Both the position numbers and the translations under genes were made by a program. A DNA stretch of 23,573 nucleotides, taken from positions 1-23,573 of the forward strand of contig JALOPD010000023.1 of the NCBI GenBank assembly GCA_025454075.1, in the 5' to 3' direction. This document shows positions 3,099 to 17,395 of this stretch, one piece after another (the stretch's first letter is position 1; the number at the start of each line of letters is the position of its first letter). The notes below the pieces were generated by a model. It made no database searches. It was not told the DNA's origin and saw nothing but the letters and a program-made list of their open reading frames with translations. The stretch is from Desulfobacterales bacterium. Its GTDB lineage: Bacteria > Desulfobacterota > Desulfobacteria > Desulfobacterales > UBA2174_A.

Positions 3099-4256
3099 TC
3101 ATTGCAAGACCCGACCCGACCAGAGGTCTTCGAGAAAAACCTTCCACGGCATGATCTCGATGCCCTGCTCCGTCAACCGCGGGCGAGGGTCGCACGATAC
3201 CAGCAGCCTTCGGCGCGCATGGTACTCCTCGCCGAACGCGACAAGCCCCTTGAAATGATGCGCCTGAGCCTTTTCGGTCCCCTTGACCTCTATCGCCACC
3301 TCATGGTCGCCGAGAATGAAATCGATTCCCAACTTGGATGCCGTGCGCCAGTAGGACAGGGGGTATGCCAGCCCGGAATAGCGGGAATGGGCGCAGAGTT
3401 CCATGAAGATGAAATGCTCGAAAGCCCTGCCGAACAGCTCCGATCCCTGCGTCACGCGTCCACGCTTCGTGAGGAAGTTGACCACGCCGACATCGAAAAA
3501 ATAAAAGCGTGGCGTCGCAATGACACGCCGTTTCGGTCGCTTTCTGTAGGCAGGCAGGAAACGCCCGATCAACGTGTCTTCCAGTATCTGGTAATACGAC
3601 TTGACTGTCGGTACGCTGACCCCACACTCCCTGGCAATGGTCGAGAACTGCAGCATTTCCCCGTTGCCGAGGGCGGCCATCTCCAAAAAACGGCTGAAGG
3701 ATGGGACATTCCGCGTAAGGGCTTCGGCCACGATTTCTTCTCTCAGATAATCTCCGACGTAAGATTCAAGGCGCCGGCGCGCCAGGCGGCTGCCATAATG
3801 CGGAGGCATCAGCCCGTCGTTCAAAGCCGAATCCAGCGAGAAGCCCGGAATTTCGGTGAACGACAGTGGGAACAGTTCATATCGCAGGGCGCGGCCGCCA
3901 AGCAGATTGCCATGACCGCGACGCAGTTTTCGAGCGCTCGAGCCGCAGAGGATGAACTGCAGATTGGTGTTTTCGATCAGCCAGTGGACTTCATCGAGCA
4001 GATCAGGGACTTTTTGGACTTCATCCAAGATTATTGGTTGAGTCACCGCCGCGTTGCGCAGCAGGGCAAGGCACTCTTCCCGGAACAGGGCCGGTTGATG
4101 CAGCAGCCGACGATACTCGTCCGAGAGGAGAAGGTCGTAGCGGCGGGAGTGTGGAAAGCGTTCGCGCAGCAGCGTGCTTTTACCGGTTTGGCGCGGACCC
4201 CAAAGAAAGCAGCTTGATCGCTCGGGCAAATCGATGTTCAACCAGCGCTGAAACAT
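3099..4256 (-). CDS. AAA+ ATPase with DUF4143 C-terminal domain
   Basis: A 385-residue protein. The N-terminal P-loop domain has Walker A GPRQTGKST (20-28), Walker B PIILDEVQK (74-82) and a sensor-like CGSSARKLRRG (104-114). The middle region carries a winged-helix-like segment (IARECGVSVPTVKSYYQIL, about 207-225). The C-terminal DUF4143 part ends in a restriction-endonuclease-like core, with Asp312 in GIDFIL and Glu323-Val-Lys325 in AIEVKG. Proteins of this build are common, often horizontally spread single genes of unknown cellular role. It stands alone between two unrelated minus-strand groups, with its own promoter in an AT-rich gap (4257-4293). No Shine-Dalgarno sequence precedes the ATG, so it may be translated from a very short leader. 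The family call is strong; the function is unknown. Confidence 0.87.
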   Translation of the reverse strand: MFQRWLNIDLPERSSCFLWGPRQTGKSTLLRERFPHSRRYDLLLSDEYRRLLHQPALFREECLALLRNAAVTQPIILDEVQKVPDLLDEVHWLIENTNLQFILCGSSARKLRRGHGNLLGGRALRYELFPLSFTEIPGFSLDSALNDGLMPPHYGSRLARRRLESYVGDYLREEIVAEALTRNVPSFSRFLEMAALGNGEMLQFSTIARECGVSVPTVKSYYQILEDTLIGRFLPAYRKRPKRRVIATPRFYFFDVGVVNFLTKRGRVTQGSELFGRAFEHFIFMELCAHSRYSGLAYPLSYWRTASKLGIDFILGDHEVAIEVKGTEKAQAHHFKGLVAFGEEYHARRRLLVSCDPRPRLTEQGIEIMPWKVFLEDLWSGRVLQ

Positions 4257-4293: not shown

Positions 4294-5094
4294 TTAAATT
4301 GATGATTGTTGGTCGATCAGCTCCGCCACCAGCACGGTGACCGCTTGGCCCCGCAGGCGCACCCGGTCCCCCATCACCGTGACCCCGACCACGCCGCCGC
4401 GCGCCGAGGCCTGGTAGGCGAGCATTTCGGTCCTGCCCAGGCGCTTGCTCCAGTAGGGACCGAGACAGCAGTGGGCCGAGCCGGTCACCGGGTCCTCGTC
4501 GATGCCGACGGCCGGCCCGAAGAACCGCGAGACGAAGTCGAAGCCCGGCATGGAAGCCCGGCTGGTCACCATGACGCCGCGCACCGGCAGGGCTTTCAGA
4601 CGCGTGAGGTCGGGGCGCAGGCTTCTCACGATCTCTTCGGATCCCACCTCCACCAGGTGATCGAAGCGGCTGCCGCGGAAGTTTACGATCTTCGCCCCCA
4701 GGGTCTCGGTCAGGCCGGGCGGGGCCTGCGCCTCCTCGTCCGGCACGGCGGGAAAATCCAGTTCGATGCCGCCCTGCCGGCGCGCGGCTGTCAGCAGGCC
4801 GCTGAGGGTGTAAAACCGCGCGGATTCGCGGCCGTCCAGCAGGCCGGTCTCCCACAGGATGTGGGCCGAGGCGAGCGCCGCGTGGCCGCAGAGTTCGACC
4901 TCCACGGCGGGCGTGAACCAGCGCAGGCGAAAGCCGTCCGATTGCTTCAGCAGGAAGGCCGTCTCCGAGAGGTTCATCTCCCGCGCGACATTCTGCATCC
5001 AGGTGTCGTCTTTAGGGTCGGCCAGCACACAGACGCCGGCGGGATTGCCCGTGAACGGTTTGTCGGTGAAGGCGTCGACCTGGTAGATTTTCAT
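4294..5094 (-). CDS. PhzF-family isomerase/epimerase
   Basis: A 266-residue protein of the PhzF fold (two diaminopimelate-epimerase-like halves). Diagnostic stretches are MKIYQVDAFTDKPFTGNPAG at the start, NLSETAF with the family's catalytic glutamate (Glu44 from this start), VELCGHAALASAH, and DEDPVTGSAHC in the second half. Members catalyse cofactor-free proton shifts or isomerisations on small metabolites; only a few have known substrates. A GTG two codons upstream (5100) is in frame, but the ATG at 5094 gives the usual family N-terminus. It is the last gene of the minus-strand catabolic block, 72 bases after ygeW, which suggests it acts on an intermediate of that pathway. The 5095-5166 gap carries two copies of GGGTTCAG (5106-5113, 5121-5128). 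Confidence 0.88.
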   Translation of the reverse strand: MKIYQVDAFTDKPFTGNPAGVCVLADPKDDTWMQNVAREMNLSETAFLLKQSDGFRLRWFTPAVEVELCGHAALASAHILWETGLLDGRESARFYTLSGLLTAARRQGGIELDFPAVPDEEAQAPPGLTETLGAKIVNFRGSRFDHLVEVGSEEIVRSLRPDLTRLKALPVRGVMVTSRASMPGFDFVSRFFGPAVGIDEDPVTGSAHCCLGPYWSKRLGRTEMLAYQASARGGVVGVTVMGDRVRLRGQAVTVLVAELIDQQSSI

Positions 5095-5166
5095 GTGCAC
5101 CCAGAGGGTTCAGGATTCAAGGGTTCAGTAGGCCGAAGAGATGAATCCTCCAGCCCTTCGGTCACG

Positions 5167-6357
5167 TTAGAGGCCGATGCGCTTAGCCGTGCGGCGCTTC
5201 ATGGCCCGGAGCAGTTTGGCCGGGTCCTCGAAGCGGGCGGCCAGCATGGCGGCGGCGATGATGTAGGGCTTGAAGCCGGCCTGAATGTAGGTCGGGATGC
5301 GGTAGCGCTCGAACACGCCGGCGGCAACCTCGCCGGCCGTGCACGAGACCCCGGAGATGTCCGCCGGCAGGCAGTGCATGTAAAGCGCCTTGCCCCTGCG
5401 GGTGAGCTTCATCTTGGCTTCGGTGCACTCCCAGTCTTTGAACCGGGCATTGTTGGCCAGGCACGCGTTTTCGAGCTCCTTGAGCCCGTCCGTGTCGTTG
5501 TTGCGCAGCAGTTCGGTGCGTTTTTCCATGACGTGAAAGGGGGCCCAGCTCTTGGGGTAGACCACGTCGGCGCCGGCAAAGGCCTCGTCCATGGAGTTCA
5601 CGACTTTGAAGCTGCCGCCGTTTTCTTTCGCGAAGACGCCCGCCTTCGCAACCACGTCGGGGATCAGTTGGTAGCCCTCGGGGTGGGCCAGCACCACCTC
5701 CATGCCGAAGCGCGTCATCAGCCCGATCACCCCCTGGGGCACGGACAAGGGCTTGCCGTAGCTGGGGGAATAGGCCCAGGTCATGGCGATTTTCTTGCCC
5801 CGCAGGTGGTCCAGCGAGCCGAAGTGGTGTTGGAGCTGCATCAGGTCGGCCATGCTCTGGGTGGGGTGGTCGATGTCGCTCTGCAGGTTGACCAGGTAGG
5901 GCCGCTGTTCCAGGACCCCGGCCTTGAACCCGTCCTCCACGGCGGCGGCCACCTCCTGCATGTAAGCGTGGCCCGCGCCCAGAAAAATGTCGTCCCGGAT
6001 GCCGATGAATTCGGTGAAAAAGCCGATCATATTGGCCGTCTCGCGCACGGTCTCGCCGTGGGCGATCTGTGAGCGGCCTTCGTCCAGGTCCTGGACGCCG
6101 AGCCCCAGCAGGTTGGCGGCGGAGAAAAAGGAGAAGCGCGTGCGGGTCGACTGGTCGCGGAAGATGCTCACGGCCAGGCCGGAGTCGAAGCAGCGGGTCG
6201 AGATGTTTTCCCGGCGCAGCCATTGCAGCGCATCGGCCACGGCAACGATTTTCCTGAGTTCATCAACGGATTTCTCCCAGGTCAGCAGGAAATCCTTGTG
6301 GTAAAGCTCACCGGGCAGGCCATCGATCTCCTTCATCAGCTGGGGAAAGCTGGTCAT
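5167..6357 (-). CDS. ygeW: Knotted carbamoyltransferase, YgeW type
   Basis: A 396-residue protein, the length expected for YgeW. It keeps the carbamoyl-phosphate motifs of the aspartate/ornithine carbamoyltransferase superfamily: DQSTRTRFSF (S-T-R-T-R), HPTQSMADLM (HPxQ) and HCLPAD (HCLP). The N-terminus (MTSFPQLMKEIDGLPGELYH) and the insertions in the C-terminal half fit YgeW rather than ArgF or PyrB. The true substrate of YgeW is not settled; in other bacteria it sits with ygeX/ygeY in purine and diaminopropionate degradation clusters. Here it follows the YgeY-like hydrolase by 33 bases with a strong AAGGAGG ribosome-binding site. A catabolic role, releasing carbamoyl phosphate from a ureido compound, is inferred. 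No carbamate kinase is seen in the window. Confidence 0.9.
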   Translation of the reverse strand: MTSFPQLMKEIDGLPGELYHKDFLLTWEKSVDELRKIVAVADALQWLRRENISTRCFDSGLAVSIFRDQSTRTRFSFFSAANLLGLGVQDLDEGRSQIAHGETVRETANMIGFFTEFIGIRDDIFLGAGHAYMQEVAAAVEDGFKAGVLEQRPYLVNLQSDIDHPTQSMADLMQLQHHFGSLDHLRGKKIAMTWAYSPSYGKPLSVPQGVIGLMTRFGMEVVLAHPEGYQLIPDVVAKAGVFAKENGGSFKVVNSMDEAFAGADVVYPKSWAPFHVMEKRTELLRNNDTDGLKELENACLANNARFKDWECTEAKMKLTRRGKALYMHCLPADISGVSCTAGEVAAGVFERYRIPTYIQAGFKPYIIAAAMLAARFEDPAKLLRAMKRRTAKRIGL

Positions 6358-6390
6358 CGGTCCTCCTTGCAGGTCGTCCGTTTCTGGCTA

Positions 6391-7575
6391 TTAAAAAGCG
6401 AACGCGTACAACGCATAAAAGGCGGCGGCGTTGACGAGGTCCTCGACCGGGGTCTTTTCATCGGGGGCGTGGGCCATGGCCTCCGCCCCCGGCCCGAAGC
6501 CGATGGTCGGGATCCCATACATGCCGGAGATGGTGACGGCGTTGGTCGAGAAGGTCCACTTGCCGATGCGGGGCGGCTTGGCAAACAGCGCCCGGCAGAC
6601 CCGAACGCCGGTCTGCACCGCCGCGTGGTCCTCGGGCCACTTCCAGGTCGGGTAATATTTTTCCATGCCGTAGCGTCGGCCGGTGTAGCCCGTTTCCTCG
6701 TAGTTCAAAACGAAGACCTTGGCATCTTCCCCCTTGACCAGCGCTTCTATCTCCTTGACGGCCGATTCCTTGGTTTCGCCCCAGGTCAGCCGGCGGTCCA
6801 GGTGGATGCGGGCGTAGTCGGCCACCGCGCAGAGCGACGGGCTGCCGGAGACGAACTGGCTCAGTGCAATGGACCCCTTGCCGAGAAATTCGTCGACGGG
6901 CAGCCGCTCGTTGAGCTGCTCGGCGGCCAGACAGGCGCGGGAGGCCATGTAGATCGCATTCTTGCCGCGTTCCGGGGCCGATCCGTGGGAGGAGAGGCCC
7001 TTGAACTCGACCTCGATTTCCATCCGGCCGCGCTGGCCGCGGTAGAGGCCGCCGTCGGTGGGCTCGGTGCTCACGACCACCTCGGGCCGGATCCCGTCCT
7101 CTTCGATGACATACTTCCAGCACAGGCCGTCGCAGTCCTCCTCGATGACGCTGCCGACGAAATACACCGTGAGATCCCGGTTCAGACCCAATTCCTTGAG
7201 GATGCGGCCCGCGGTGACCATGGAGGCGACGCCGCCCTTCTGGTCCGCGGCCCCGCGGCCGTGGACGAACCCGTCGCGGATCTCCCCGCAGAACGGGTCG
7301 AAGCTCCAGTTGGCCGCGTTGCCCACCTCCACGGTGTCGATGTGGCCGTCGAACGCCAGGATGCGTTTGCCGTTTCCGATGCGGCCGATCACGTTCCCGA
7401 GCCCGTCGATCTTGACCTCGTCGAAGCGGGCGGCCTGCATCTGCTCGATCAGTTTTTGCGCCACCTCCTTCTCTCCAAGGCTGAAGGACTTGATCTTGAT
7501 AAGTTCGGACAGGTTTAAAGCCGTGTAGTCGCGATATCGTCGGGATAGTTCCAGGATCCGTTCGGCGGTTTGCAT
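6391..7575 (-). CDS. ygeY: M20-family metallohydrolase, YgeY type
   Basis: A 394-residue M20 peptidase/deacylase. Metal and catalytic residues are visible in order: His78-x-Asp80 (FDGHIDTV), Asp111 (GRGAADQKGG), the Glu145-Glu146 pair (VIEEDCDG), Glu171 (STEPTDGG) and a C-terminal His in FGPGAEAMAHAPDE. The dimerisation/lid domain lies between about 180 and 290. This matches the YgeY family, annotated elsewhere as a 'selenium metabolism-linked hydrolase' because of gene neighbourhood; there is no in-frame UGA here and no selenium gene in the window. Enzymes of this fold remove acyl, carbamoyl or peptide groups from amino acids. Its place between the PLP lyase and ygeW supports a role in breaking down an N-substituted amino acid. 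The start has an AGAGGG ribosome-binding site. Confidence 0.88.
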   Translation of the reverse strand: MQTAERILELSRRYRDYTALNLSELIKIKSFSLGEKEVAQKLIEQMQAARFDEVKIDGLGNVIGRIGNGKRILAFDGHIDTVEVGNAANWSFDPFCGEIRDGFVHGRGAADQKGGVASMVTAGRILKELGLNRDLTVYFVGSVIEEDCDGLCWKYVIEEDGIRPEVVVSTEPTDGGLYRGQRGRMEIEVEFKGLSSHGSAPERGKNAIYMASRACLAAEQLNERLPVDEFLGKGSIALSQFVSGSPSLCAVADYARIHLDRRLTWGETKESAVKEIEALVKGEDAKVFVLNYEETGYTGRRYGMEKYYPTWKWPEDHAAVQTGVRVCRALFAKPPRIGKWTFSTNAVTISGMYGIPTIGFGPGAEAMAHAPDEKTPVEDLVNAAAFYALYAFAF

Positions 7576-7596
7576 GGAAGCCCTCTTTACTTTGAA

Positions 7597-7633
7597 TTCG
7601 ATTTTCCCTGAAAATCGAAGCCGCTCAAGCGGC
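7597..7633 (-). other. Two tandem hairpins between the PLP lyase gene and ygeY
   Basis: Two perfect stem-loops lie side by side: TTCGATTTT/AAAATCGAA (7597-7605 and 7611-7619, 5-base loop) and GCCGCT/AGCGGC (7620-7625 and 7628-7633, 2-base loop). The second overlaps the stop codon of the upstream lyase gene. On the transcript they would fold one after the other about 20 bases before the ygeY start. There is no U-run, so they look more like mRNA stability or processing elements than a terminator. Confidence 0.55.
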
Positions 7634-9031
7634 TTTGATTCGATATTCCTCGATCAGGCGGTCGACGTTCGCCACCTCGGCCTGCTGGCCTTCCCAGTAG
7701 GCCTGGCTGCGCTGGGCGTTCAGCTCCTCGACGGTCTTGCCCTGCTGTTCGATCCAAGTGAAGTACTTTAGGTTGTGCCATTGGCTGCGGTTGCGGCGGG
7801 TGCCCTCGTCGATCCAGTCGAGCTTCTGGCGGTGGAAGATGCTGACCAGGCGGACCTCGGCGGCGGTCCGGTCCATGGGGCCGAAGCACTCCGAGAGGGA
7901 AGCCATGACCGAATGATAGCGGTCGATGGCGTCGGTGCAGACGGTGACGATGAGGTCGTCCTTGCCCATGCCGAAGAACTTGGCCGTCTTGATTGCACCC
8001 AGCACGTTGCAGACCCCCGAAATGCCGAAGATCTGCGAGAGCTTTTTTACCTTTTCCTCGGCCACGCCGTATTTGCCGATGAGCAGCTCCCAGCCGGGCT
8101 CCTCGGTCAGCAGCTGCAGGCCGAGCTTGCTCTCGATGTCGTCGATGCACATGACCGCGTCCATGTTCACGACGTTGTGGATCCAGGTGACGTGCTTGTC
8201 GCCGATGCCCTGGATGTCGTGGCCGCCGTAGCCGTTCCAGTAGAGGGTCGGGCACTGGATCGGTTCGAGCCCCACGATCACGTGCCGGCCGGGCCACTGC
8301 CGCTTGAGCCGGTCGCCGGCGGCAATCGTGCCGGAGGAGCCCATGGCCGAGATGTAGGCCGAAACCACGCCTTTCCCAATGCCCTGGGCCTCAAGCACCC
8401 GAGCCAGCTCGACGATGGTGTTGCCGGTCACATAATAATGAAAGCGGTAGTTGGCGAACTCCTCGAACTGGTTCATGATGCGGATGCGGTCGGGGTCCGA
8501 GCGCTTGAGCGCATGGCACTTGTCGTAGATCTCCTTGACGCTGCTTTCGCAGCCCGGCGTCAGCTCCAGACGCGCGCCGTAGCGGCGGACGATCTCGAAG
8601 CGCTCCTTGCTCATTTCCTCGGGCAGGATCACGACCGAGTCGAACTGCATGCGGCAGCCGACCCAGGCCCCGCCGATGCCGTAGTTGCCGGTGGACGGCC
8701 AGACGATGGTGTGGCGCGCCGGGTCCACCTCGCCGCGGATGGCCTTCTCGATCAGAACCGAATAGGTGGCGCCGACCTTGTGGCTGCCGGTCGGGAAGTC
8801 CTTGCCGTAGAGGACGACGATCGGGGTGTCGACCCCGGTCAGCTCGCGCGGCAGGACCTCGTGGTAGATACGGCCGGTGCCGTCCTTCCAGGAGATGTTG
8901 TAGAGATTGATGGGGTCCAGCGGATCCTTCTCCTTCGTGGCCAGGGCCTTGGCCCGCAGGTCTTTGCGAATCTTGGATGGGTCCAGCATTTCGGCGAAGG
9001 TGGGGCCGGTGATCAGTCGCTGTTGCGTCAT
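7625..9031 (-). CDS. Fold-type II PLP-dependent lyase of the ygeW/ygeY cluster
   Basis: A 468-residue enzyme of the tryptophan-synthase-beta/cysteine-synthase fold. The cofactor lysine is Lys85 in TGSHKVGATYS, a Ser-Thr-Gly-Asn loop (STGNYGIGGAW, from 113) should bind the substrate carboxylate, and GSSGT (231-235) forms the phosphate cup. It is longer than a standard cysteine synthase, with a C-terminal extension rich in Trp and charged residues (about 400-468). It is not the classical diaminopropionate ammonia-lyase YgeX by sequence pattern, although it occupies the same position relative to ygeY and ygeW. I infer an ammonia-lyase, beta-elimination or beta-replacement reaction on an amino acid. 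An extended -10 promoter and a GAGG ribosome-binding site precede it, so this gene may begin its own transcript. Substrate unknown. Confidence 0.82.
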   Translation of the reverse strand: MTQQRLITGPTFAEMLDPSKIRKDLRAKALATKEKDPLDPINLYNISWKDGTGRIYHEVLPRELTGVDTPIVVLYGKDFPTGSHKVGATYSVLIEKAIRGEVDPARHTIVWPSTGNYGIGGAWVGCRMQFDSVVILPEEMSKERFEIVRRYGARLELTPGCESSVKEIYDKCHALKRSDPDRIRIMNQFEEFANYRFHYYVTGNTIVELARVLEAQGIGKGVVSAYISAMGSSGTIAAGDRLKRQWPGRHVIVGLEPIQCPTLYWNGYGGHDIQGIGDKHVTWIHNVVNMDAVMCIDDIESKLGLQLLTEEPGWELLIGKYGVAEEKVKKLSQIFGISGVCNVLGAIKTAKFFGMGKDDLIVTVCTDAIDRYHSVMASLSECFGPMDRTAAEVRLVSIFHRQKLDWIDEGTRRNRSQWHNLKYFTWIEQQGKTVEELNAQRSQAYWEGQQAEVANVDRLIEEYRIKAA

Positions 9032-9056
9032 AGATGCCTCGTATAACTAAGCAATT

Positions 9057-9065
9057 ATTATAACA
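9057..9065 (-). promoter_or_regulatory. Extended -10 promoter before the PLP lyase gene
   Basis: On the minus strand the bases read TGTTATAAT: a perfect TATAAT (9062-9057) with the TG of an extended -10 one base upstream. It lies in a locally AT-rich patch about 25 bases before the ATG at 9031. No good -35 is seen at the usual distance, which extended -10 promoters can tolerate. Together with the repeat at 9098-9148 it probably separates the lyase-ygeY-ygeW-PhzF unit from the ABC transporter unit upstream. Confidence 0.5.
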
Positions 9066-9097
9066 AGAGCCGGTTATGGCGAGCCGCACTGTCCGAA

Positions 9098-9148
9098 GTG
9101 GAACATAATCCCCCCGGCCCCCTTTTCCAAAGGGGGTTGGGGGGATTT
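9098..9148 (-). repeat. Palindromic C-run/G-run intergenic repeat, copy 1
   Basis: A ~51-base element with arms AATCCCCCC...GGGGGGATT and an inner stem CCCCCTTT/AAAGGGGG, plus a conserved tail (GTTCCAC read on the minus strand, 9104-9098). It is nearly the same as the element at 18732-18783 in opposite orientation. It lies between the two PLP enzyme genes, where the strong hairpin could stop or attenuate transcription from the transporter side. Confidence 0.8.
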
Positions 9149-9163
9149 AGAGCTTTTCCCATA

Positions 9164-10636
9164 TCACCCGGCTTTTGAGCGGTCAAACCCGGTGAAGAAA
9201 AGGCCAACCGATTCGCTCCTGTCGATGGCCCCGGATGCCTGCAGCTGCATCAGCCCGGCCAAGCCCGCCGCTCCCGTGGGGCAGACGGGGATCCCCGTGT
9301 GGAGTTGCGCCTTCTCATACGCGTCGCGGATGGTGCCCTCGGCGAGGATTTCGGCCTTGCCCCCCGAGCGTAGAACGGCGCGCAGCAGATAGTACCAGTC
9401 GTAGGTGAGGTCATCCAGAATGCCGTGTGCCAGGCTGTGCGGGGCGGCCCCGTCCCAGGGCCACATGAAATGGCCGGCGTTGCCGGCCATATGGTTCAGG
9501 GCGGATTGGACCGCTGGGGAATCGAAGTTGCGACTAGTGAAAGCGGCAAGCTTTTGAACCTGGTCGGAGCGGGCGCGACTGAATTCCAGCGCGCGCTGCA
9601 GCTGCTCAACCGGATCGGCGCCGTTGTCGTAGTTCAGGTCGAAGGATTGCCCGCTGCGGCGGGCGATCTCGGACAAGGCCAAAAGATAGGCCCGCACAAA
9701 GGGAAAGCCGCCCTCGGGCTGGCAGACGTGGATGCGCGGCAGCCGCTCGAGCAACCCCAGCCGGTACGCCTCTTCGATCGCCTGCGCCACTGCGCGGGCC
9801 AGTGCCCCGCCGCCCACTTGGATCACGAGGTGGTCGACCGTCTCGGCCCGTTCTTCAAACTGCAGCGCGAGTTCCCAGCCCAGGGTGGAGCCCCCCTCGA
9901 TGTTCGACCAGTTGTCGTTGCCGGCGCAGGCGAAGGGCAGCCAGCCGTTTTCGGTCAACGCCTTATGAAATGCGAGGTAGCAGGGGTCGCCTGCGCCGGT
10001 GCTCGAGCGGGGGATTTTTTCAACGACCGTGCCCCGCTCCTCCAGCATGGCGGCCACCGCAGGGTCGACATCCTCCGGCACGAAGGCGTGCAGCTCGTAG
10101 CCGCCGGCCCGGGCCACGGCCGAGGCGCCCAGCGCCGCGTTACCGCAGCTGTAGATGGCCAGGATCTTCTTTGCCCCTTCACCCTTGAGTTCCCTCAGCG
10201 CCTCCACGTATAGCAGCGTGCCCATCAGGTGCCGGCCCTTGTGGGACCCTGTCACGTTGCCGGTTTCGTTCTTCACCCACAGGAGGCCGGACCGGCCGAG
10301 ACCCGCTGCCAGGCCGGGTTCTTCGCTCAGAGGCGTAATTTCGAAATCCCGCCCCTCCAGTCGCAGCAAGCGGTCCGTCACCCCGTCTAAAATCCTGCAA
10401 TAGCGACTTTGGCCGAGCAGGTTGCAGCCGGAAAGGAGTGGATGAAAAAGGTCGAAGGTGCGCCGCGATCCTGCCACCCAGGATTTTCGGATGCCTTTGG
10501 CAGCTTGTGAATCCGGGGGCAATATGCGGCACAACGTGTGCTCCTCTCCGGTGCGGTCGCCGGGGCAGCTGAAGATGCCCGATTCGATCGGGTAATCTTT
10601 ATGGCAGGATGGGCATTTAAGAAAACCTCGAAGCAT
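9164..10636 (-). CDS. Threonine synthase-like PLP enzyme with zinc ribbon
   Basis: A 490-residue fold-type II PLP enzyme. The N-terminus carries a small zinc ribbon (Cys8, Cys11, Cys24, Cys36), as in some threonine synthases and cysteate synthases. The PLP lysine is Lys133 in NVTGSHKGRHLMG, followed by the SCGNAALGASA loop (163-173) and the glycine-rich phosphate cup QVGGGALA (273-280). The C-terminal domain ends with the PTGAAGLAGL segment usual for the fold. The frame is open further upstream to 10834, but that part overlaps the end of dppF; the ATG at 10636 gives the zinc ribbon at the N-terminus and has an AGGGAG ribosome-binding site. It follows dppF by 52 bases and likely shares its transcript. 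No threonine-pathway genes are near, so a catabolic lyase role is more likely than threonine synthesis. Confidence 0.8.
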   Translation of the reverse strand: MLRGFLKCPSCHKDYPIESGIFSCPGDRTGEEHTLCRILPPDSQAAKGIRKSWVAGSRRTFDLFHPLLSGCNLLGQSRYCRILDGVTDRLLRLEGRDFEITPLSEEPGLAAGLGRSGLLWVKNETGNVTGSHKGRHLMGTLLYVEALRELKGEGAKKILAIYSCGNAALGASAVARAGGYELHAFVPEDVDPAVAAMLEERGTVVEKIPRSSTGAGDPCYLAFHKALTENGWLPFACAGNDNWSNIEGGSTLGWELALQFEERAETVDHLVIQVGGGALARAVAQAIEEAYRLGLLERLPRIHVCQPEGGFPFVRAYLLALSEIARRSGQSFDLNYDNGADPVEQLQRALEFSRARSDQVQKLAAFTSRNFDSPAVQSALNHMAGNAGHFMWPWDGAAPHSLAHGILDDLTYDWYYLLRAVLRSGGKAEILAEGTIRDAYEKAQLHTGIPVCPTGAAGLAGLMQLQASGAIDRSESVGLFFTGFDRSKAG

Positions 10637-10688
10637 CCGGAGCTCCCTCTCAAGGCATAGCGATAGGCAGGACCGCGCCCCTTTCGTA

Positions 10689-11657
10689 TCAGGCCGCGTG
10701 TAACCAGCACGCCACCTGGTAGCTCTCGCCGACGTCGCGCAGTTCAGGCGCCTGCCGCCGGCAGCGCTCGGTCGCGTCCGGGCAGCGCGGGTGAAAATGG
10801 CAGCCCGACGGCGGCGAAACGGGGCTCGGCACATCGCCCTTCAGCACCATGCGCCGGCGTTCGCCCGCCGACGTCGTCTTCGGCACCGCGGACAGCAGCG
10901 CCCGCGTGTACGGGTGCAGCGGCTGCCCGAAGAGCCGGTCGCCATCGCCGGTCTCGACCAGCCGCCCGAGGTATATCACGGCCACGCGGTCGCTGATGTG
11001 CTGCACCACGGCCAGGTCGTGCGCGACGAAGACGTAGGAAATGCCCAGTTCCTTCTGCAGGTCGATCAGCAGGTTGATGATCTGCGCCTGGATCGAGACG
11101 TCGAGCGCGGAGACCGGCTCATCGCAGACGATCAGGCCCGGCTCCAGCGCCAGCGCGCGCGCGATGCCCAACCGCTGCTGCTGGCCGCCCGAAAACTCGT
11201 GTGCATACTTGCGCATCGAATCGCGGTGCAGGCCCACCCGGTCGAAGAGCTTCTCCACGCGCCCGGTGCGATCCGCCGCGCCCACGCCGAAATTGCGCAG
11301 TGGTTCGCCGATGATGGCGCCGGCGCTCATGCGCGGATTCAACGAGGCATACGGGTCCTGGAAGACGATCTGAACGCGCTTGCGATACGGCCGAAACTGC
11401 GCTCGTGACAGCGCGGTCACGTCCACGCCGTCGAGCAGCACCTGCCCCGCCGTCGGCTCGATCAGGCGCAGAATGGCCTTGGCGGCGGTCGACTTGCCGC
11501 AGCCCGACTCGCCGACGATGCCGATGGTTTCGCCGTGGCCGAGCGTGAAGGAAATGCCGTCGACGGCGCGCACTTCCTGTCGCTCGCCGAAAGGCTTTCG
11601 GCTCAACGGGAAGTACTTCTTGAGATCCCTGACTTCGAGCAGCGGTGCATCGGACAT
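10689..11657 (-). CDS. dppF: Dipeptide/oligopeptide ABC importer ATPase (DppF type)
   Basis: A 322-residue ABC ATPase. Visible are Walker A GESGCGKST (49-57), the Q-loop QDPYASLNP, signature FSGGQQQRLGIA, Walker B LIVCDEPVSALD and the switch His in FVAHDLAV. The C-terminal oligopeptide-transporter extension ends in GCHFHPRCPDATERC, whose Cys residues are a hallmark of Dpp/Opp ATPases. The start chosen is the ATG at 11657 (MSDAPLLEVRDLKKYF), which overlaps the dppD stop by one base (TGATG), a sign of translational coupling. It is the last transporter gene of the operon. It powers uptake together with DppD at the cytoplasmic face of the DppB/DppC pore. Confidence 0.93.
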   Translation of the reverse strand: MSDAPLLEVRDLKKYFPLSRKPFGERQEVRAVDGISFTLGHGETIGIVGESGCGKSTAAKAILRLIEPTAGQVLLDGVDVTALSRAQFRPYRKRVQIVFQDPYASLNPRMSAGAIIGEPLRNFGVGAADRTGRVEKLFDRVGLHRDSMRKYAHEFSGGQQQRLGIARALALEPGLIVCDEPVSALDVSIQAQIINLLIDLQKELGISYVFVAHDLAVVQHISDRVAVIYLGRLVETGDGDRLFGQPLHPYTRALLSAVPKTTSAGERRRMVLKGDVPSPVSPPSGCHFHPRCPDATERCRRQAPELRDVGESYQVACWLHAA

Positions 11658-12703
11658 CACGCGCCCCCGCAGTTGAAGCACGACACGATGTGCCCGTTGC
11701 CGCGATCCTCCAGCGTGGGTGCGGATTCGCGGCAGATCGCGGTGGCCTTGTGGCAGCGCGGCGCGAAGCAGCAACCCTTCAGTTCGCCCTTCAGCGTGGG
11801 CACCATGCCGGGAATCTCGACCAGCCGCGGACGGTCCGCGCGGCGCGTGCCGGGCGCCGTTTCGAGCCGTGGCGTCGCCGACAGCAACCCCTGTGTGTAG
11901 GGGTGCAAGGGCGCGGCAAAGAGTTCACCGGCGGCGGCTTCCTCGACCTTGCGCCCCGCGTACATCACGACCACGCGGGCGCAGGTTTCGGCGACCACGC
12001 CCAGGTCGTGCGTGATCATGATGATCGAGGTGTCGAACTCTCGCTTCAGGTCCAGCATCAGCTCGATGATCTGGGCCTGGATCGTCACGTCCAGCGCGGT
12101 AGTGGGTTCGTCCGCGATCAGCACCTTCGGGTTGCAGACCAGCGCGGCGGCGATCATCGCGCGTTGGCGCATGCCGCCGGAGAACTGGTGCGGATACTCG
12201 TCCGCGCGGCGCTCCGGCTCCGGGATGTTGACCCTGTGCAGCATCTCCACCGCCAGCTCGCGCGCCGCGCGCCGGCCGAGCTTCCGGTGCAGCACCGCCG
12301 TCTCCGCGATCTGCTCGCCCACCGTCAGCACCGGATTCAGCGACGTCATCGGATCCTGGAAGATCATCGATATCTCGTTGCCGCGGATCTTGCGCATGCG
12401 CTTTTCGTCGAACTGCAGCAGGTCGGCGCCGTTGTAGCAGATGGACCCGCCGGCGATCACCGACGGCGGCGAGGGAATCAGCTGCAGCATCGTCATGGCC
12501 GTCACGCTCTTGCCGCAGCCCGATTCACCCACCAGGCCCAGTGTCTCTCCCCGCTGCAGGTCGAAGGACACGCCGTCGACCGCACGCAGGATGCCGTCAC
12601 GGTTCGCGAACCAGACCTTCAGGTCGTCGATTTGTATGATGGGATCGCGCGAGCCGATCCCGGCGAGCGGGTTGCGGGCCGCGTTTGACGTCATGGCGTC
12701 CAT
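11657..12703 (-). CDS. dppD: Dipeptide/oligopeptide ABC importer ATPase (DppD type)
   Basis: A 348-residue ABC ATPase with Walker A GESGCGKSV (59-67), Q-loop QDPMTSLNP, signature FSGGMRQRAMIA, Walker B VLIADEPTTALD and switch MITHDLGV. The DppD/OppD C-terminal extension with GCCFAPRCHKATAIC is present. It begins one base after the dppC stop and ends overlapping the dppF start, so the ATPase genes are tightly coupled. A second in-frame ATG lies at 12694. It should pair with DppF as a heterodimeric motor. The Dpp label means the transporter class only; the transported molecule is not shown by the sequence. Confidence 0.93.
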   Translation of the reverse strand: MDAMTSNAARNPLAGIGSRDPIIQIDDLKVWFANRDGILRAVDGVSFDLQRGETLGLVGESGCGKSVTAMTMLQLIPSPPSVIAGGSICYNGADLLQFDEKRMRKIRGNEISMIFQDPMTSLNPVLTVGEQIAETAVLHRKLGRRAARELAVEMLHRVNIPEPERRADEYPHQFSGGMRQRAMIAAALVCNPKVLIADEPTTALDVTIQAQIIELMLDLKREFDTSIIMITHDLGVVAETCARVVVMYAGRKVEEAAAGELFAAPLHPYTQGLLSATPRLETAPGTRRADRPRLVEIPGMVPTLKGELKGCCFAPRCHKATAICRESAPTLEDRGNGHIVSCFNCGGA

Positions 12704-12704
12704 C

Positions 12705-13586
12705 TCACAGCCGCCGCGCGATCTTCGGATCTAGCATGTCGCGCAACCCGTCTCCCAGTAGGTTGATCGACAGCACCGTGAGTCCTAGGAAGATGCCGGG
12801 GAACAGGATGATGTTGAACGCGAGCTGCACCACGGCGCGGCCTTCCGCCATCATGTTGCCCCAACTCGGAATCTCGGGCGGCGTTCCGGCGCCGAGGAAC
12901 GACAGGTACGCCTCGAACAGCACGGCCGAGGCGGAGATGAACGTGCCCTGCACGATCAGCGGCGTGACTGCGTTCGGCAGCACGTGGCGCAGCAGGATCC
13001 AGTGGAAACGCGTGCCGATGGCCTCCGCCGCCTGCACGTAAGGCTGCTCGCGGATTACCAGCACCAGTGAACGCACCAGCCGTACGACGCGCGGGATCTC
13101 CGGCACCGCGATGGCAATCACGACCGTCTCGATGCTGGCGCGCAGCAGCGCCATCAGCGCCACCGCCAGCAGGATGCCGGGAATGGCCATCATGCCGTCC
13201 ATCACGCGCATGACCAGCGCGTCCGCCATCCGCGAAAAACCCGCCACCATGCCGATCAGCACGCCGATGCTGGTCGCTAGCAGCGACACGCTGATGCCGA
13301 CGATCAGCGACACGCGTCCGCCCCACAGCACGCGCGAAAACACGTCGCGGCCCATCGCGTCGGTGCCGAAAAGATGCACGGCGCTCGGCGCCTTCAGCCG
13401 CTGCATCACGTTCATGTCGATCGGGCTGTAGGGCGCCAGCCACGGGGCCGCCAGCGCGACCAGCGCCATGATCGCCAGCAGCACGCCGCCGATCACGAGC
13501 AGCGGGTGGCGTCGCAAGAAGGACCACCACGGCCGGCGTCCCTCCGTGTCGACACGCGATTCGATCTGAGCCAGCGTCAGGGCCAC
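12705..13586 (-). CDS. dppC: ABC importer permease (DppC type)
   Basis: A 293-residue inner-membrane permease. After a short cytoplasmic N-terminus with FLRRHPLLVIGGVLLAIMAL (first membrane helix about 29-49) comes an OppC-type N-terminal region (LAPYSPIDMN, then HLFGTDAMGRDVFSRVLWGGR) and five more helices. The EAA loop that docks on the ATPases reads YVQAAEAIGTRFHWILLRHV. The start is a GTG at 13586 and is supported by the conserved early sequence; no better ATG exists. It lies 18 bases after dppB and one base before dppD, in a compact operon. It forms the translocation pore with DppB. Confidence 0.92.
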   Translation of the reverse strand: MALTLAQIESRVDTEGRRPWWSFLRRHPLLVIGGVLLAIMALVALAAPWLAPYSPIDMNVMQRLKAPSAVHLFGTDAMGRDVFSRVLWGGRVSLIVGISVSLLATSIGVLIGMVAGFSRMADALVMRVMDGMMAIPGILLAVALMALLRASIETVVIAIAVPEIPRVVRLVRSLVLVIREQPYVQAAEAIGTRFHWILLRHVLPNAVTPLIVQGTFISASAVLFEAYLSFLGAGTPPEIPSWGNMMAEGRAVVQLAFNIILFPGIFLGLTVLSINLLGDGLRDMLDPKIARRL

Positions 13587-13604
13587 GATGTCGTTACCCC
13601 GTCC

Positions 13605-14543
13605 TCAATACCGGATCCGCGGATCGAGCACCGTGTATAACAGGTCGATCGCCAGATTGATGAACACGTAAACCGCCGCGACCACCAGCACAATCCCCTG
13701 GATCACCGGGTAGTCGTGCCGCAGCACCGAATCGACCGTCAGCCGGCCGATGCCGGGGATCGCGAACACGCTTTCGGTGATGATGACGCCGCCCAGCAGC
13801 AGCGCGATGCCAAGGCCGATCGTCGTGACGATCGGCACCGCCGCATTCTTCAGCGCATGGCGCAAGAGCAAGCGCTGGTTGCCCACGCCGCGCGCCCGCG
13901 CGGTGCGGATGTAGTCCTCGCCCAGCACCTCGAGCATGGTGGCGCGCGTCATCCGCGCGATCAGCGCCATGTAGACGAGGCCGCCGCTCAACGCGGGCAG
14001 GATCAAGTGTTTGATGAACGGGCCGAACCCTTCGCGCAGGCTATGGAAGCCCTGCACCGGCAGCCATGCGAGCTTGATCGAGAAGCCGAAGATGAAGAGG
14101 TACCCGATCAGGAAAACGGGAAGGGAAAACGCCATCACCGCCAGTGCCATCAGCGTGCGGTCGATCCATGTGCCGGCCTTCCATGCGGCGACGATGCCCA
14201 TCGGCACCGCGAGGATGACCGCGAACGTGATGGTCAGGAATGTCAGCCACAGCGTCGGTTCGATGCGCTGGCCGATCATCGTCGTTACCGGCAGGCCCGT
14301 GAACACCGACACGCCCAGGTCGCCCTGCAGCAGCCGCCACAGCCACGAGAAGAACTGCTCGTGCAGCGACCGGTTCAGGCCCAGCAGCTGGCGCACGCGC
14401 TCGACGTCGTCCGAGCTTGCGGTGTCGCCGGCGATCAACGCCGCCGGATCGCCGGGGCTCAGATGCAGCAGCAGAAACACGATCACGGCAACGATGCCGA
14501 GGACCGGGATGACCGCCAGGATGCGCTTGAGGACATACAGCAT
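13605..14543 (-). CDS. dppB: ABC importer permease (DppB type)
   Basis: A 312-residue permease. The N-terminus MLYVLKRILAVIPVLGIVAV is the typical OppB/DppB first helix, followed by the periplasmic loop with LSPGDPAA and VRQLLGLNRSLHEQF, then five further membrane helices. The EAA loop is EDYIRTARARGVGNQRLLLR, and the C-terminus ends YTVLDPRIRY as in this family. The ribosome-binding site is weak. A ~117-base inverted-repeat element separates it from the binding-protein gene upstream, so its expression relative to that gene may be reduced. It partners DppC in the membrane. Confidence 0.92.
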   Translation of the reverse strand: MLYVLKRILAVIPVLGIVAVIVFLLLHLSPGDPAALIAGDTASSDDVERVRQLLGLNRSLHEQFFSWLWRLLQGDLGVSVFTGLPVTTMIGQRIEPTLWLTFLTITFAVILAVPMGIVAAWKAGTWIDRTLMALAVMAFSLPVFLIGYLFIFGFSIKLAWLPVQGFHSLREGFGPFIKHLILPALSGGLVYMALIARMTRATMLEVLGEDYIRTARARGVGNQRLLLRHALKNAAVPIVTTIGLGIALLLGGVIITESVFAIPGIGRLTVDSVLRHDYPVIQGIVLVVAAVYVFINLAIDLLYTVLDPRIRY

Positions 14544-14597
14544 GGGGCAGGGCCCAAGGGTAAGGATGTTTTGCGGGGCCGAAGGTGATTTTCGGTG

Positions 14598-14714
14598 AAA
14601 GGGACCAGAGAGACGAAAGAGACCTATGGGGGCAGCCCGGGTGCGGGATGCCGCCGCGGGTGTTTAGTGTTGGGCGTTTAGGTCTCGGATCCCTTTGGTC
14701 CCTTTGGTCCCTTT
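14598..14714. repeat. Terminal-inverted-repeat (MITE-like) element in the ABC operon
   Basis: The gap between the binding-protein and dppB genes holds a non-coding element with inverted ends: AAAGGGACCA (14598-14607) against TGGTCCCTTT (14696-14705 and again 14705-14714), and inside these GAGACCT (14619-14625) against AGGTCTC (14680-14686). The right end is made of 9-base tandem units CCCTTTGGT. The centre contains a GC-rich part and an A/C-type repeat resembling 733-772. It carries no open frame. In the mRNA it could form a long hairpin that protects the 3' end of the binding-protein transcript. Confidence 0.6.
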
Positions 14715-14725
14715 ATGGTCGTGCG

Positions 14726-16312
14726 CTACTTCTCCACGTTCCACATCACCGGGATCCCGGTGATGATCAGGCCCTTGAGATTGGCGCGGTATGCCATCGG
14801 CCAGAAGAACTGGCCGAAGTTCACGTAGGGAGACTGATCGTACGCGCGTTTTTGGATGTCCTCGGTCAGCTTCTTGCGCTTGGCCGGATCGTCTTCGCGC
14901 GCCCACGCCATCCGCAGCTCTTCCATCGTCGGGTCGCACGACCAGCCGGCCGGCGCCGCACCGCAGGTTCCCTGCAGGTACGCGTTGGTGACCGGCGAGA
15001 TCACGTCATAGCCGACCGAGTAGGTGTGGAAGATGTGCCAGCCGCCCTGGTCGATCGGCTCCTTCTTCGCGCGCCGGCCCAGCAGCGTGCTCCAGTCCAT
15101 CGCCTGCGCGTCGACGTTCACGCCGGCCTTGCGCAGGTTCTGCACCGTCACCAGCGCAGCGGCAGCCTGCACCGGCGGATCGCTCGGCGTCAGCACGACG
15201 ATCTTCTCGCCGTTGTAACCCGCCTCCTTCAAAAGCTGCTTGGCCTTCTCGATGTTCTGGCCGCCCTTGAACGGCTCGGCGCCGGCCGCTGTCTCGTTCA
15301 GGCTGCCGCACATGAAGTACGCGGGGCAGTACTTGACGCGGAACTTTTCGGGAAAGCCGGCCGCCGCCAGGTACTCTTCCTGGTTGATGAGGTGCTGCAA
15401 CGCCAGGCGCGCCTTCGGGTGGTTGAAAGGCGGCTGCAGGTGGTTCGGACGCAGCCAGCCCTGGTTGCCGAGCGAGTCGGCCGCGAGCTTGATATTAGGG
15501 TCCTTCTCCAGCGCCGGGATGAAGTCGGCCTGCGGCAGCTCGAAGATGTCGGCCTCGCCTTTGGTCAGCGCCGCGAGCGCCGTGTTCTGGTCGGGGATGT
15601 AGATCCACTCGACACGGTCGACCTTCACGACCTTGCCGCCGGCCAGCCCGTCGGCCGGTTCGTTGCGCGGCACGTAGTTCGGGTTCTTCACGTACACGAC
15701 CTTGTTGCCGGGCACCCACTCGTCCTTCTTGAAGATAAACGGGCCGGAGCCGGTGGCGTCCGTGATCTGCTGATTCGGGTCGGTCTTGGCGATGCGCTCG
15801 GGCATCATGAACGGCACGTTGGACGATGGCTTGCCCAGCGCGTCGATCACGAGGCCGAACGGGGCCTTCAGTGTCAGCGTGAAGGTGCGACCGTTGACCA
15901 CGTCAAGCGAGGCAAGCTCCCGCATCACCAGCGTGCCGGACACGTCCTTCGCCCCCCAGCGCTTGATCGACGCCACGCAGTCGGCCGCCGTGACCGGCGC
16001 GCCGTCGTGCCACTTCAGGCCCTGGCGCAGCGTGAACGTGTACGTCTTCTTGTCGGGCGAAAGCGTGTATGTGTCGATCATCTGCGGCTTGACCTGGCCC
16101 TTGGAGTCGACCGAGAACAGCGTGTCGTAGACCATGTAGCCGTGGTTGCGGCTGATGTACGAGGCGTTCTGGATCGGGTCGATGATTTTCAGGTCGCCGC
16201 CCGGAATCATCCTGATGACCTTGCCCTGCGCGAACGCAGATCCGCCGCCAAACGTTGCGGCCACCGCAACCATCGCCGACAGCGTCGCCTTTACAAACGT
16301 CGCTCGTTTCAT
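14726..16312 (-). CDS. ABC importer periplasmic substrate-binding protein, family 5
   Basis: A 528-residue exported protein. A Sec signal peptide (basic MKRATFVKAT, hydrophobic core, cleavage near AFA-QG at 28-29) precedes a family 5 solute-binding domain (SBP_bac_5). The early conserved stretch GYMVYDTLFSVDSKGQVKP, then LRQGLKWHDGAPVTAADCV, and ATGSGPFIFKKDEWVPGN further on are characteristic. These proteins capture peptides, but also opines, glutathione, nickel chelates or other small compounds, so the ligand is open. It is the first gene of the transporter operon, with a GAGGAGA ribosome-binding site and a plausible promoter upstream. High expression relative to the permeases would be expected. 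Confidence 0.92.
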   Translation of the reverse strand: MKRATFVKATLSAMVAVAATFGGGSAFAQGKVIRMIPGGDLKIIDPIQNASYISRNHGYMVYDTLFSVDSKGQVKPQMIDTYTLSPDKKTYTFTLRQGLKWHDGAPVTAADCVASIKRWGAKDVSGTLVMRELASLDVVNGRTFTLTLKAPFGLVIDALGKPSSNVPFMMPERIAKTDPNQQITDATGSGPFIFKKDEWVPGNKVVYVKNPNYVPRNEPADGLAGGKVVKVDRVEWIYIPDQNTALAALTKGEADIFELPQADFIPALEKDPNIKLAADSLGNQGWLRPNHLQPPFNHPKARLALQHLINQEEYLAAAGFPEKFRVKYCPAYFMCGSLNETAAGAEPFKGGQNIEKAKQLLKEAGYNGEKIVVLTPSDPPVQAAAALVTVQNLRKAGVNVDAQAMDWSTLLGRRAKKEPIDQGGWHIFHTYSVGYDVISPVTNAYLQGTCGAAPAGWSCDPTMEELRMAWAREDDPAKRKKLTEDIQKRAYDQSPYVNFGQFFWPMAYRANLKGLIITGIPVMWNVEK

Positions 16313-16375
16313 TGCCTATCTCCTCATCAAGAAGTTTGCATGCTGCTTGACTTGCCGGAGTTCCATCCGACGTTT

Positions 16376-16404
16376 CGCCTAGCACGTGCCGTCGGTTCTG
16401 TCAA
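16376..16404 (-). promoter_or_regulatory. Candidate sigma-70-type promoter of the ABC importer operon
   Basis: On the minus strand, a perfect -35 TTGACA (16404-16399) is followed after exactly 17 bases by TAGGCG (16381-16376), with the extended TG motif in TGCTAGGCG. The predicted start site is about 55 bases before the binding-protein ATG at 16312. The -10 is poor, but the -35, spacing and position are right. Confidence 0.5.
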
Positions 16405-16527
16405 GGCCATTTGTGTGCCGATATCATTGTGAATAATGACAGGCACCATCACGCTGTGACACCTTGGCGGTCGGAGCGAACCCCCTCTTTTTTCAGTATG
16501 TTTCCCCTCTTATGGCGCTGCTCGCAG

Positions 16528-16545
16528 AAGGCGGACGGCCGCCTT
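16528..16545. other. Hairpin in the divergent intergenic region
   Basis: A perfect 7-base inverted repeat, AAGGCGG and CCGCCTT with loop ACGG, lies in the 279-base region between the divergent ABC operon and the deacetylase gene, about 47 bases before the deacetylase start. It could be an operator or an RNA stem. No clear -35/-10 pair for the plus-strand gene was found; TATAAA at 16581-16586 is only 6 bases from the chosen ATG. Confidence 0.35.
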
Positions 16546-16591
16546 CAATAAAGGCTAATCCCCAGGGCCCATACGGTCGATATAAACAATC

Positions 16592-17395
16592 ATGAGATCG
16601 TTATTGATGGTTTGTCTATCCTGCCTGTTCCTCTGGGTGCCCGGTTCCGGAACGCACGCGGACCCGGGCGTGCCGATCCTGCTCTACCACCGCTTCGGCC
16701 CCACGGTCGCCGACAGCATGACCGTGACCACCCCGGTCTTTGAATCCCACCTGAAATATCTGCACGAAAACGGCTACCAGGTCGTCCCGCTCAGGGACCT
16801 GATGGGGATGTACTTCGGCGATGGAATCCCGGCCGATTCACGCTACGTCGTCCTCGTCGCCGACGACGCGCACATCTCGGTCTACACGACCGCCTGGCCG
16901 CTGCTCAAAAAGTACAACGCCCACATGACGCTGTTCGTCTACCCGTCGGCCGTATCCAACGCCTCCTACGCCATGACCTGGAACCAGCTGCGGGAGCTGA
17001 AAGGGACCGGGCTCTTCGATTTCCAGTCCCACACCTACTGGCACCCCAATTTCAAAAAGGAACGGGAGCGTCTGGCCCCGGTCGAGTTCGAGAAACTCGT
17101 CCACATGCAGTTCACCAAGTCCAGGGAGAGGCTGGAAAAAGAGCTGGGCGTGAAGGTCGACCTGCTGGCCTGGCCCTTCGGCATTTTCGACCCCTGGCTC
17201 ATGGCCAAGGCCGCCGAGGCCGGGTACACCGCCGCCTTCACCATCGAGCGGCATGCGGTGACGCGGGAGGACCGGCCCCTGGCGCTGCCCCGCTACCTGC
17301 TGACCGACACGGACCGCGGCAAAGCCTTTGAAGCCTTATTGAACGCATCGCATTTCGTCGCCAAGAGGGAGAGCAAGAATGGGAAAAGCAATTAG
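16592..17395 (+). CDS. Exported polysaccharide deacetylase (NodB/CE4 type)
   Basis: A 267-residue protein with an N-terminal signal peptide (MRSLLMVCLSCLFLWVPGSG, cleavage near HAD at 22-24) and a polysaccharide deacetylase fold. PILLYHRFG (28-36) opens the domain. Metal-binding positions are Asp91-Asp92 and His147/His151 in SHTYWHPN, and LLAWPFGIFDPW matches the later catalytic motif. The usual first motif TFDDG is changed to VADDAH, so the Gly is missing although the Asp pair is kept. Such enzymes remove N- or O-acetyl groups from peptidoglycan, chitin-like or exopolysaccharide chains in the periplasm. It overlaps the next gene by 17 bases, so the two are one translational unit. Substrate unknown. 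Confidence 0.87.
   Translation: MRSLLMVCLSCLFLWVPGSGTHADPGVPILLYHRFGPTVADSMTVTTPVFESHLKYLHENGYQVVPLRDLMGMYFGDGIPADSRYVVLVADDAHISVYTTAWPLLKKYNAHMTLFVYPSAVSNASYAMTWNQLRELKGTGLFDFQSHTYWHPNFKKERERLAPVEFEKLVHMQFTKSRERLEKELGVKVDLLAWPFGIFDPWLMAKAAEAGYTAAFTIERHAVTREDRPLALPRYLLTDTDRGKAFEALLNASHFVAKRESKNGKSN

Follow-up and report, generated by a model that had tools for sequence, protein, structure and literature searches.

The question raised by this locus is what substrate and what route could unite a peptide-type importer, two enzymes dependent on pyridoxal phosphate (PLP), a YgeY hydrolase, a YgeW carbamoyltransferase and a PhzF isomerase in one row of genes. The row occupies positions 4294-16312 of a stretch of 23,573 nucleotides (the window) from a Desulfobacterales bacterium (assembly GCA_025454075.1, contig JALOPD010000023.1), where ten intact open reading frames (ORFs) follow one another on the minus strand. 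The first-pass annotation of this DNA had described ten minus-strand genes, and both the genes and their names were confirmed by ORF inspection and by NCBIfam and Pfam profiles. The answer favoured here, to which about even chances are given, is that the block works by itself as the lower half of the reductive (anaerobic) urate pathway, on imported substrate and with the two PLP enzymes, PLP1 and/or PLP2, in place of YgeX. According to NCBIfam and Pfam, the genes are transcribed in the order binding protein, two permeases, two ATPases, PLP2, PLP1, YgeY, YgeW and PhzF.

14726-16312, minus strand: periplasmic binding protein of the Dpp-type importer (Pfam SBP_bac_5, 249.8 bits)
13605-14543, minus strand: Opp/Dpp-type permease B (Pfam BPD_transp_1 and BPD_transp_1_N)
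12705-13586, minus strand: Opp/Dpp-type permease C (Pfam BPD_transp_1 and OppC_N)
11657-12703, minus strand: Opp/Dpp-type ATPase, OppD-like (Pfam ABC_tran and oligo_HPY)
10689-11657, minus strand: Opp/Dpp-type ATPase, DppF-like (NF008453, 410.3 bits, cut-off 408; Pfam ABC_tran and oligo_HPY)
9164-10636, minus strand: PLP2, threonine-synthase-like fold-type II PLP enzyme with an N-terminal Cys-rich stretch, a candidate for a second PLP step (Pfam PALP)
7625-9031, minus strand: PLP1, cysteine-synthase-like fold-type II PLP enzyme of 468 amino acids, a candidate for the terminal lyase (Pfam PALP)
6391-7575, minus strand: YgeY, M20 hydrolase (TIGR03526, 493.5 bits, cut-off 321.5)
5167-6357, minus strand: YgeW, knotted carbamoyltransferase (TIGR03316, 631.2 bits, cut-off 500)
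4294-5100, minus strand: PhzF-family isomerase, an optional member (Pfam PF02567, PhzC-PhzF, 221.5 bits, cut-off 27; TIGR00654, 130.7 bits, cut-off 76.2)
10637-16591: importer slot, filled by the Dpp operon in the window; in relatives a TRAP importer lies on the same side of PLP2

The enzyme core and its expected chemistry

Compared with their E. coli counterparts, the window YgeW shows 67% identity across 394 amino acids and the window YgeY 51.5% across 390, and at such similarity both are likely to share the chemistry of the E. coli enzymes. It was reported in 2025 that the E. coli YgeW catalyses the phosphorolysis of 2,3-diureidopropionate to albizziin, that YgeY, assayed together with YgeX, acts on albizziin, and that YgeX converts diaminopropionate to pyruvate (PMC12507026). 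As a commentary notes, the initial cleavage has been assigned by another group to the other ureido group (PMC12990295), and an earlier study described YgeW as inactive on more than 20 compounds (PMC11326118). The first-pass annotation had proposed an N-carbamoyl or ureido amino acid as substrate, which is likely considering the identity of YgeW to an enzyme acting on diureidopropionate, and carbamoyl phosphate as product, which is likely as well, a carbamate kinase being encoded elsewhere in 8/9 relatives. The route, which it had suggested to be possibly undescribed, is more plausibly the latter half of one already described, with different last enzymes.

Relatives, most of them draft metagenome-assembled genomes (MAGs), stand in for the window's own genome. 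A scan of a species-genome collection with PLP1 returned 33 loci, the closest of which (L001-L005) come from Desulfobacterales or other deltaproteobacterial MAGs and encode a PLP1 84-91% identical to that of the window, while a PLP2 search through 291 genomes belonging to this class, with PLP2 found in eight at E ≤ 1e-80, added the genomes G023, G040 and G288. Locus counts were based on tblastn or profiles where possible, and some antisense ORFs persist in the gene calls of GC-rich loci. It was observed that YgeY and YgeW, 62-92% identical in the relatives, directly follow PLP2 and PLP1 in 7/8 testable relatives (G001-G005, G023 and G040), the exception being G006; the contig of G288 ends too early for this check, PLP2 is cut in G003, and the genes of G005 are split over two contigs. 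PLP2-PLP1-YgeY-YgeW is a conserved unit in Desulfobacterales. PhzF, which had initially been counted as part of the set, is not constant, as it follows YgeW only in G002 and G003 (2/7 relatives).

Regarding the gene calls, the start of PLP2 is better placed at 10636, inside the listed ORF, where a 100% identical database protein of 490 amino acids begins, and that of the second ATPase at 11657, also inside the listed ORF and coinciding with the stop of the first ATPase. The last transporter gene is separated from PLP2 by 52 nt, and the gaps that follow measure 132, 49, 33 and 66 nt; with gaps of 33-132 nt in the enzyme part and 52 nt before PLP2, a single transcript across importer and enzyme genes is possible. 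A promoter scan returned five sites against 1.9 expected, among them minus-strand sites at 16618-16589, before the binding protein, and at 9082-9054, before PLP1. Rfam and tRNA scans of the window gave no matches.

The reductive urate cluster of E. coli comprises xdhD, ygfM, ygfK, ssnA, hyuA, ygeW, yqeA, ygeY and ygeX, and SsnA has been used as its marker (PMC12507026). By tblastn at 1e-8, no free-standing match to the E. coli HyuA, XdhA, XdhD, YgeX or the carbamate kinase YqeA was found in the window, in agreement with the earlier statement that hydantoinase, molybdenum hydroxylase, YgeX and carbamate kinase are absent from it; E. coli SsnA and YgfK had no match there either. SsnA, YgfK and D-hydantoinase, as genes of the upper half, were sought genome-wide in the relatives. 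SsnA remained below its cut-off of 455.5 bits in G001-G005 (209.3, 210.6, 206.3, 20.8 and 206 bits, respectively), and YgfK, whose profile also picks up numerous NAD(P)-binding proteins and for which the cut-off was the sole criterion, exceeded it in 0/20 genomes. D-hydantoinase was present at E ≤ 1e-80 in 3/9 relatives (G002, G003 and G006), always within a GltD-PreA-hydantoinase string; given these neighbours, the hydantoinases were rejected as urate genes, and the string more likely serves pyrimidine degradation.

Carbamate kinase was detected at E ≤ 1e-40 in 15/20 genomes (12 over cut-off), including 8/9 Desulfobacterota relatives (7 over cut-off), G288 being the one without it. The kinase gene occupies separate sites, and in the four cases inspected outside G006, all from Desulfobacterales (L111, L112, L117 and L118), it lies near a second carbamoyltransferase, which resembles ornithine carbamoyltransferase. 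A protein of 441-477 amino acids, without a Pfam match in L112, adjoins the kinase in L111, L112 and L116, and a gene that reads as an aminotransferase accompanies it in all of these loci except L112.

The two PLP enzymes and their link to SsnA

PLP1 scored 18.7 bits against the YgeX profile TIGR03528, whose cut-off is 532.25, and PLP2 had no match to this profile at E ≤ 1e-3; in a loose global alignment, PLP1 was 25% identical to the E. coli YgeX. PLP1 reached 119.6 of the 350.95 bits required by the cysteine synthase profile TIGR01139, and PLP2 92.3 of the 303 bits required by the threonine synthase profile NF006050. The YgeX residues Asp120 and Asp189, which we take to be catalytic, align to Cys164 and Cys237 of PLP2 in an alignment of 10 sequences, and neither cysteine varies across an alignment of 28. 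The fold matches listed, which inform on the fold only and exclude nothing, did not include diaminopropionate ammonia-lyase. OrtB, the 2-amino-4-oxopentanoate thiolase of ornithine fermentation, had been suggested for PLP1 by its length and was discarded, since NF040741, a model contained in the profile library, was not among the 13 families matched at E ≤ 1e-3. YgeX itself (TIGR03528) was not found at E ≤ 1e-20 in 19/20 genomes with PLP1, nor over threshold in the five closest draft genomes.

SsnA was sought in 15 of the genomes behind the 33 loci; these genomes were chosen after SsnA-like neighbours had appeared, so that the count is biased. It was over its cut-off in seven of them, that is, in 7/9 outside Desulfobacterota and 0/6 within, and the two remaining non-Desulfobacterota genomes scored about 405 bits. 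PLP1 and SsnA share one contig stretch in 8/33 loci, and YgeY was over cut-off in 6/9 non-Desulfobacterota genomes (G007-G015). Among 400 Chloroflexota genomes, PLP1 was found at E ≤ 1e-130 in 12, all of which have SsnA over cut-off, compared with 58/400 overall (hypergeometric probability 3e-11 with kinship ignored, or 2e-10 when the centre genome G010, itself found via PLP1, is left out); in 46 of these 58, PLP1 was not found at the same threshold. Because YgeX was not found and PLP1 co-occurs with SsnA, PLP1 and PLP2 are candidates for the replacement of YgeX.

A threonine-synthase-like PLP protein also occurs near SsnA in the loci L009, L010, L023, L027 and L031 and in the Hakubella locus L086; the two-PLP pattern recurs, though not everywhere. 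The proposal that such a protein is the constant partner of PLP1 beside SsnA was weakened, as among the further Chloroflexota genomes examined a relative of it was seen near SsnA in 1/11 (G422), besides G010. In Hakubella, the string consists of a PreA-like gene, SsnA, three Xdh-like genes, a Rid-family deaminase and the threonine-synthase-like PLP protein, which would fit a step forming 2-aminoacrylate. In the Chloroflexota genomes G707 and G555, PLP1 and SsnA are accompanied by an ATP-binding cassette (ABC) importer whose genes recur between loci, with a PnrA-type binding protein (Pfam Bmp) in G707. In the Chloroflexota loci L169, L170 and L172, an ABC importer and a protein with the metallo-beta-lactamase fold recur together with SsnA and PLP1, and G707 has two such places.

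A further 14 of the 33 loci, of Eisenbacteria type or from other bacteria (L012-L022, L024, L028 and L030), encode a PLP1 60-64% identical to that of the window. In 13/14, PLP1 lies downstream of the same GTPase gene (TGS and MMR_HSR1 by profile in one of them), and the fourteenth locus begins inside PLP1.

The importer site and the flanking genes

The first-pass annotation had assigned the block its own Dpp-type importer. A full Opp/Dpp-type ABC importer set is indeed present, consisting by Pfam of SBP_bac_5, two BPD_transp_1 and two ABC_tran/oligo_HPY proteins, and the closest solved structure of the binding protein by sequence is 8vdx (376 bits). In the relatives, however, a divergent tripartite ATP-independent periplasmic (TRAP) importer lies upstream of PLP2 in 8/8 genomes with sequence there (G001, G002, G004, G005, G006, G023, G040 and G288; in G004, just the two TRAP permease genes fall within the contig), and a search for the Dpp binding protein at E ≤ 1e-40 gave 0/9 relatives. 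Profiles support the naming through DctP in L001 (207.5 bits, cut-off 175) and DctM in L073 (403.6 bits, cut-off 268), with a weak match for the small subunit. Across 389 members of the class, two carry the Dpp binding protein at E ≤ 1e-100, with 51-52% identity. The separation of transporter and lyase block in related genomes, which the first-pass annotation had named as speaking against its proposal, is found for the Dpp genes, with another importer class at the same place. Since TRAP occupies this site in the relatives, the Dpp importer is refuted as a general rule, yet an importer at that site is the rule. The window holds a different importer class at the same locus as its relatives, and the class is exchangeable, TRAP in the relatives and Dpp-type ABC in the window.

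The absence of the Dpp genes from the relatives raised the suspicion of a chimeric assembly, which was rejected because both flanks match DNA of the G002 locus. With short gaps, the window matches G002 at 1-1954 and 4314-10501 (locus L002) and at 16673-21109 (locus L108), and nothing matches across the Dpp operon. Inside a single TRAP binding-protein gene, one end of L002 overlaps the beginning of L108 by exactly 141 bases, from which it was deduced that the order in G002 is most likely the core, the TRAP importer, a sugar-type ABC set (named by reading) and last the deacetylase found beside the Dpp operon in the window. The flank matches and this overlap, both taken from assembled contigs, speak for a real importer replacement at one site.

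Beyond PhzF, two small genes that read as lipoproteins and an AAA_14/DUF4143 ATPase occupy 2104-4256, between PhzF and a left-hand AAA gene with its partner (1-681 and 725-1963); in L002 of G002, a GAF protein and a GDPD-family phosphodiesterase are found in place of the 2104-4256 genes. On the other side, a single protein at 18789-21110 joins a Pfam Beta-lactamase (serine hydrolase) domain to both NamZ muramidase domains, and in each of three relatives (L108, L109 and L110) an ortholog with 75-85% identity stands beside the same DUF4015 gene. It is followed by a small ribbon-helix-helix gene and a PIN-domain gene in a toxin-antitoxin-like arrangement (21195-21921), and by a Fur-family regulator and an ORF that runs off the window end (22428-23573), the latter presumably a catalase-peroxidase.

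Proposed route, alternatives and known systems

In the proposed route, the importer would take up 2,3-diureidopropionate or a close ureido-diamino acid. YgeW, to judge from the assayed E. coli enzyme, would phosphorolyse one ureido group, giving albizziin (or its isomer) and carbamoyl phosphate, and YgeY would hydrolyse the other to leave 2,3-diaminopropionate. From the latter, PLP1 and/or PLP2 would eliminate ammonia to form pyruvate, taking the place of YgeX, while carbamoyl phosphate could yield ATP through a carbamate kinase encoded elsewhere, a kinase found in the relatives only. As a speculation, the substrate might be donated by community members running the upper half. The fuller statement, that uncultured Desulfobacterales without the urate-opening enzymes live on an intermediate released by urate degraders, that a PLP2-PLP1 pair of new specificity replaces YgeX and that TRAP and Dpp importers were swapped at one site, is offered as tentative.

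Several observations weigh against the lower-half reading. The pathway requires only one PLP enzyme, and the block encodes two. In the 14 Eisenbacteria-type and other loci described above, no E. coli or window pathway protein other than PLP1 had a match within reach, and YgeY was found at E ≤ 1e-60 in 0/5 Eisenbacteria-type genomes tested. Among the 12 Chloroflexota genomes with both genes, PLP1 lies within about 11 kb of SsnA in just four, the others having them on separate contigs or more than 300 kb apart (G611). A weak terminator-like site at 10646-10630 on the minus strand, at the start of PLP2, falls between the Dpp genes and the core. Finally, the Desulfobacteraceae MAG G006 (L045, L082 and L006) has a nearly complete classical reductive urate set, with a PLP2-PLP1-TRAP arrangement on a further contig. 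On one of its contigs lie the genes for carbamate kinase and SsnA, both under their cut-offs (342.7 and 324 bits, respectively), for YgeW (by reading) and for a molybdenum hydroxylase, together with a truncated YgfK, the gene being split between two contig ends; another contig carries YgeX-YgeY, both over cut-off, and HyuA was not seen on these urate-set contigs. In G006, the PLP2-PLP1 pair is additional to YgeX and not simply its substitute.

The arrangement in G006, with carbamate kinase to YgfK on one contig and YgeX-YgeY on another, would suit the notion that the complete urate pathway is present, its upper half lying elsewhere in the genome and the block being part of a split uricolytic cluster. 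This is distinctly unlikely, as SsnA is far under cut-off in the draft genomes G001-G005, YgfK is over cut-off in none of the 20 genomes, the only D-hydantoinases found in the nine relatives belong to a pyrimidine-like string, and a dedicated importer beside PLP2 suggests uptake. It is also unlikely, if somewhat less so, that PLP2-PLP1 and the importer form a module handling some other beta-substituted alanine or diamino acid, to which YgeY-YgeW were joined to remove carbamoyl groups from a different ureido compound; the four genes are co-directional and conserved together in 7/8 testable relatives, and PLP1 co-occurs with SsnA in Chloroflexota.

In a biosynthetic reading, which appears highly improbable, diaminopropionate would come from an SbnA-like PLP enzyme and beta-ureidoalanine from the carbamoyltransferase, on the pattern of zwittermicin or viomycin biosynthesis. 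PLP1 does have a weak match to the SbnA profile (46.5 bits against a cut-off of 349.95), and diaminopropionate carbamoyltransferases are known from the zwittermicin and viomycin clusters (PMC4581275); however, the hydrolase YgeY and importers stand alongside, of the enzymes compared, the catabolic one of E. coli is nearest to YgeW, and neither a nonribosomal peptide synthetase (NRPS) nor SbnB appears among the names given to those window genes that were run against the profile libraries, although neither was sought by name. A separate matter is whether the Dpp genes are a general peptide or glutathione-type importer that is a chance neighbour without functional link, which is possible, if doubtful on balance. 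The importer was not found in the relatives, which have TRAP instead, 11 full-length homologs of its binding protein at 89-91% identity, from other records, are among the 120 matches listed, and the terminator-like site separates it from PLP2; on the other hand, its genes are co-directional, end 52 nt before PLP2 and fill the importer slot of a syntenic locus, and the terminator scan was near chance overall (10 sites found, 9.1 expected).

A full account of the anaerobic urate pathway, from gut bacteria, appeared only in 2025. Among the literature matches listed, covering titles and abstract openings, no report of such a block in Desulfobacterota was found, and no match combined diaminopropionate, a TRAP transporter and a carbamoyltransferase. 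If uncultured Desulfobacterales do carry a free-standing lower half, intermediates of the pathway would be traded between species, and families labelled 'cysteine synthase' and 'threonine synthase' would gain a testable role. In addition, the Figure 3 legend of PMC12507026 scores 'YgeX' by Pfam PF00291, a family matched by both PLP1 and PLP2, so either protein may have been counted as YgeX in that survey; scoring YgeX by this general PLP domain can credit another enzyme.

Compared with known systems, PLP1 and PLP2 resemble YgeX in being fold-type II PLP enzymes, for which the same reaction is presumed, but they remain below the TIGR03528 cut-off. The zwittermicin and viomycin carbamoyltransferases share the chemistry of diaminopropionate and beta-ureidoalanine (PMC4581275), although they belong to biosynthetic clusters, whereas the window carbamoyltransferase is accompanied by a hydrolase and importers. 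A Chloroflexota variant of the urate cluster includes a putative F420-dependent reductase (PMC12507026). The likeness to it lies in the occurrence of PLP1 in 12 Chloroflexota genomes having SsnA, and an LLM-class F420-type oxidoreductase near SsnA in the Acidobacteria loci L023 and L085 recalls the same variant; the window block, in contrast, has neither SsnA nor F420 genes. The closest comparison is with the uricolytic cluster of E. coli, with which the block shares close YgeW and YgeY homologs, the same expected order of steps and carbamoyl phosphate as expected product, and from which it differs in being without SsnA, YgfK, XdhD, HyuA and YqeA, in having PLP1 and PLP2 for YgeX, and in its TRAP or Dpp importer.

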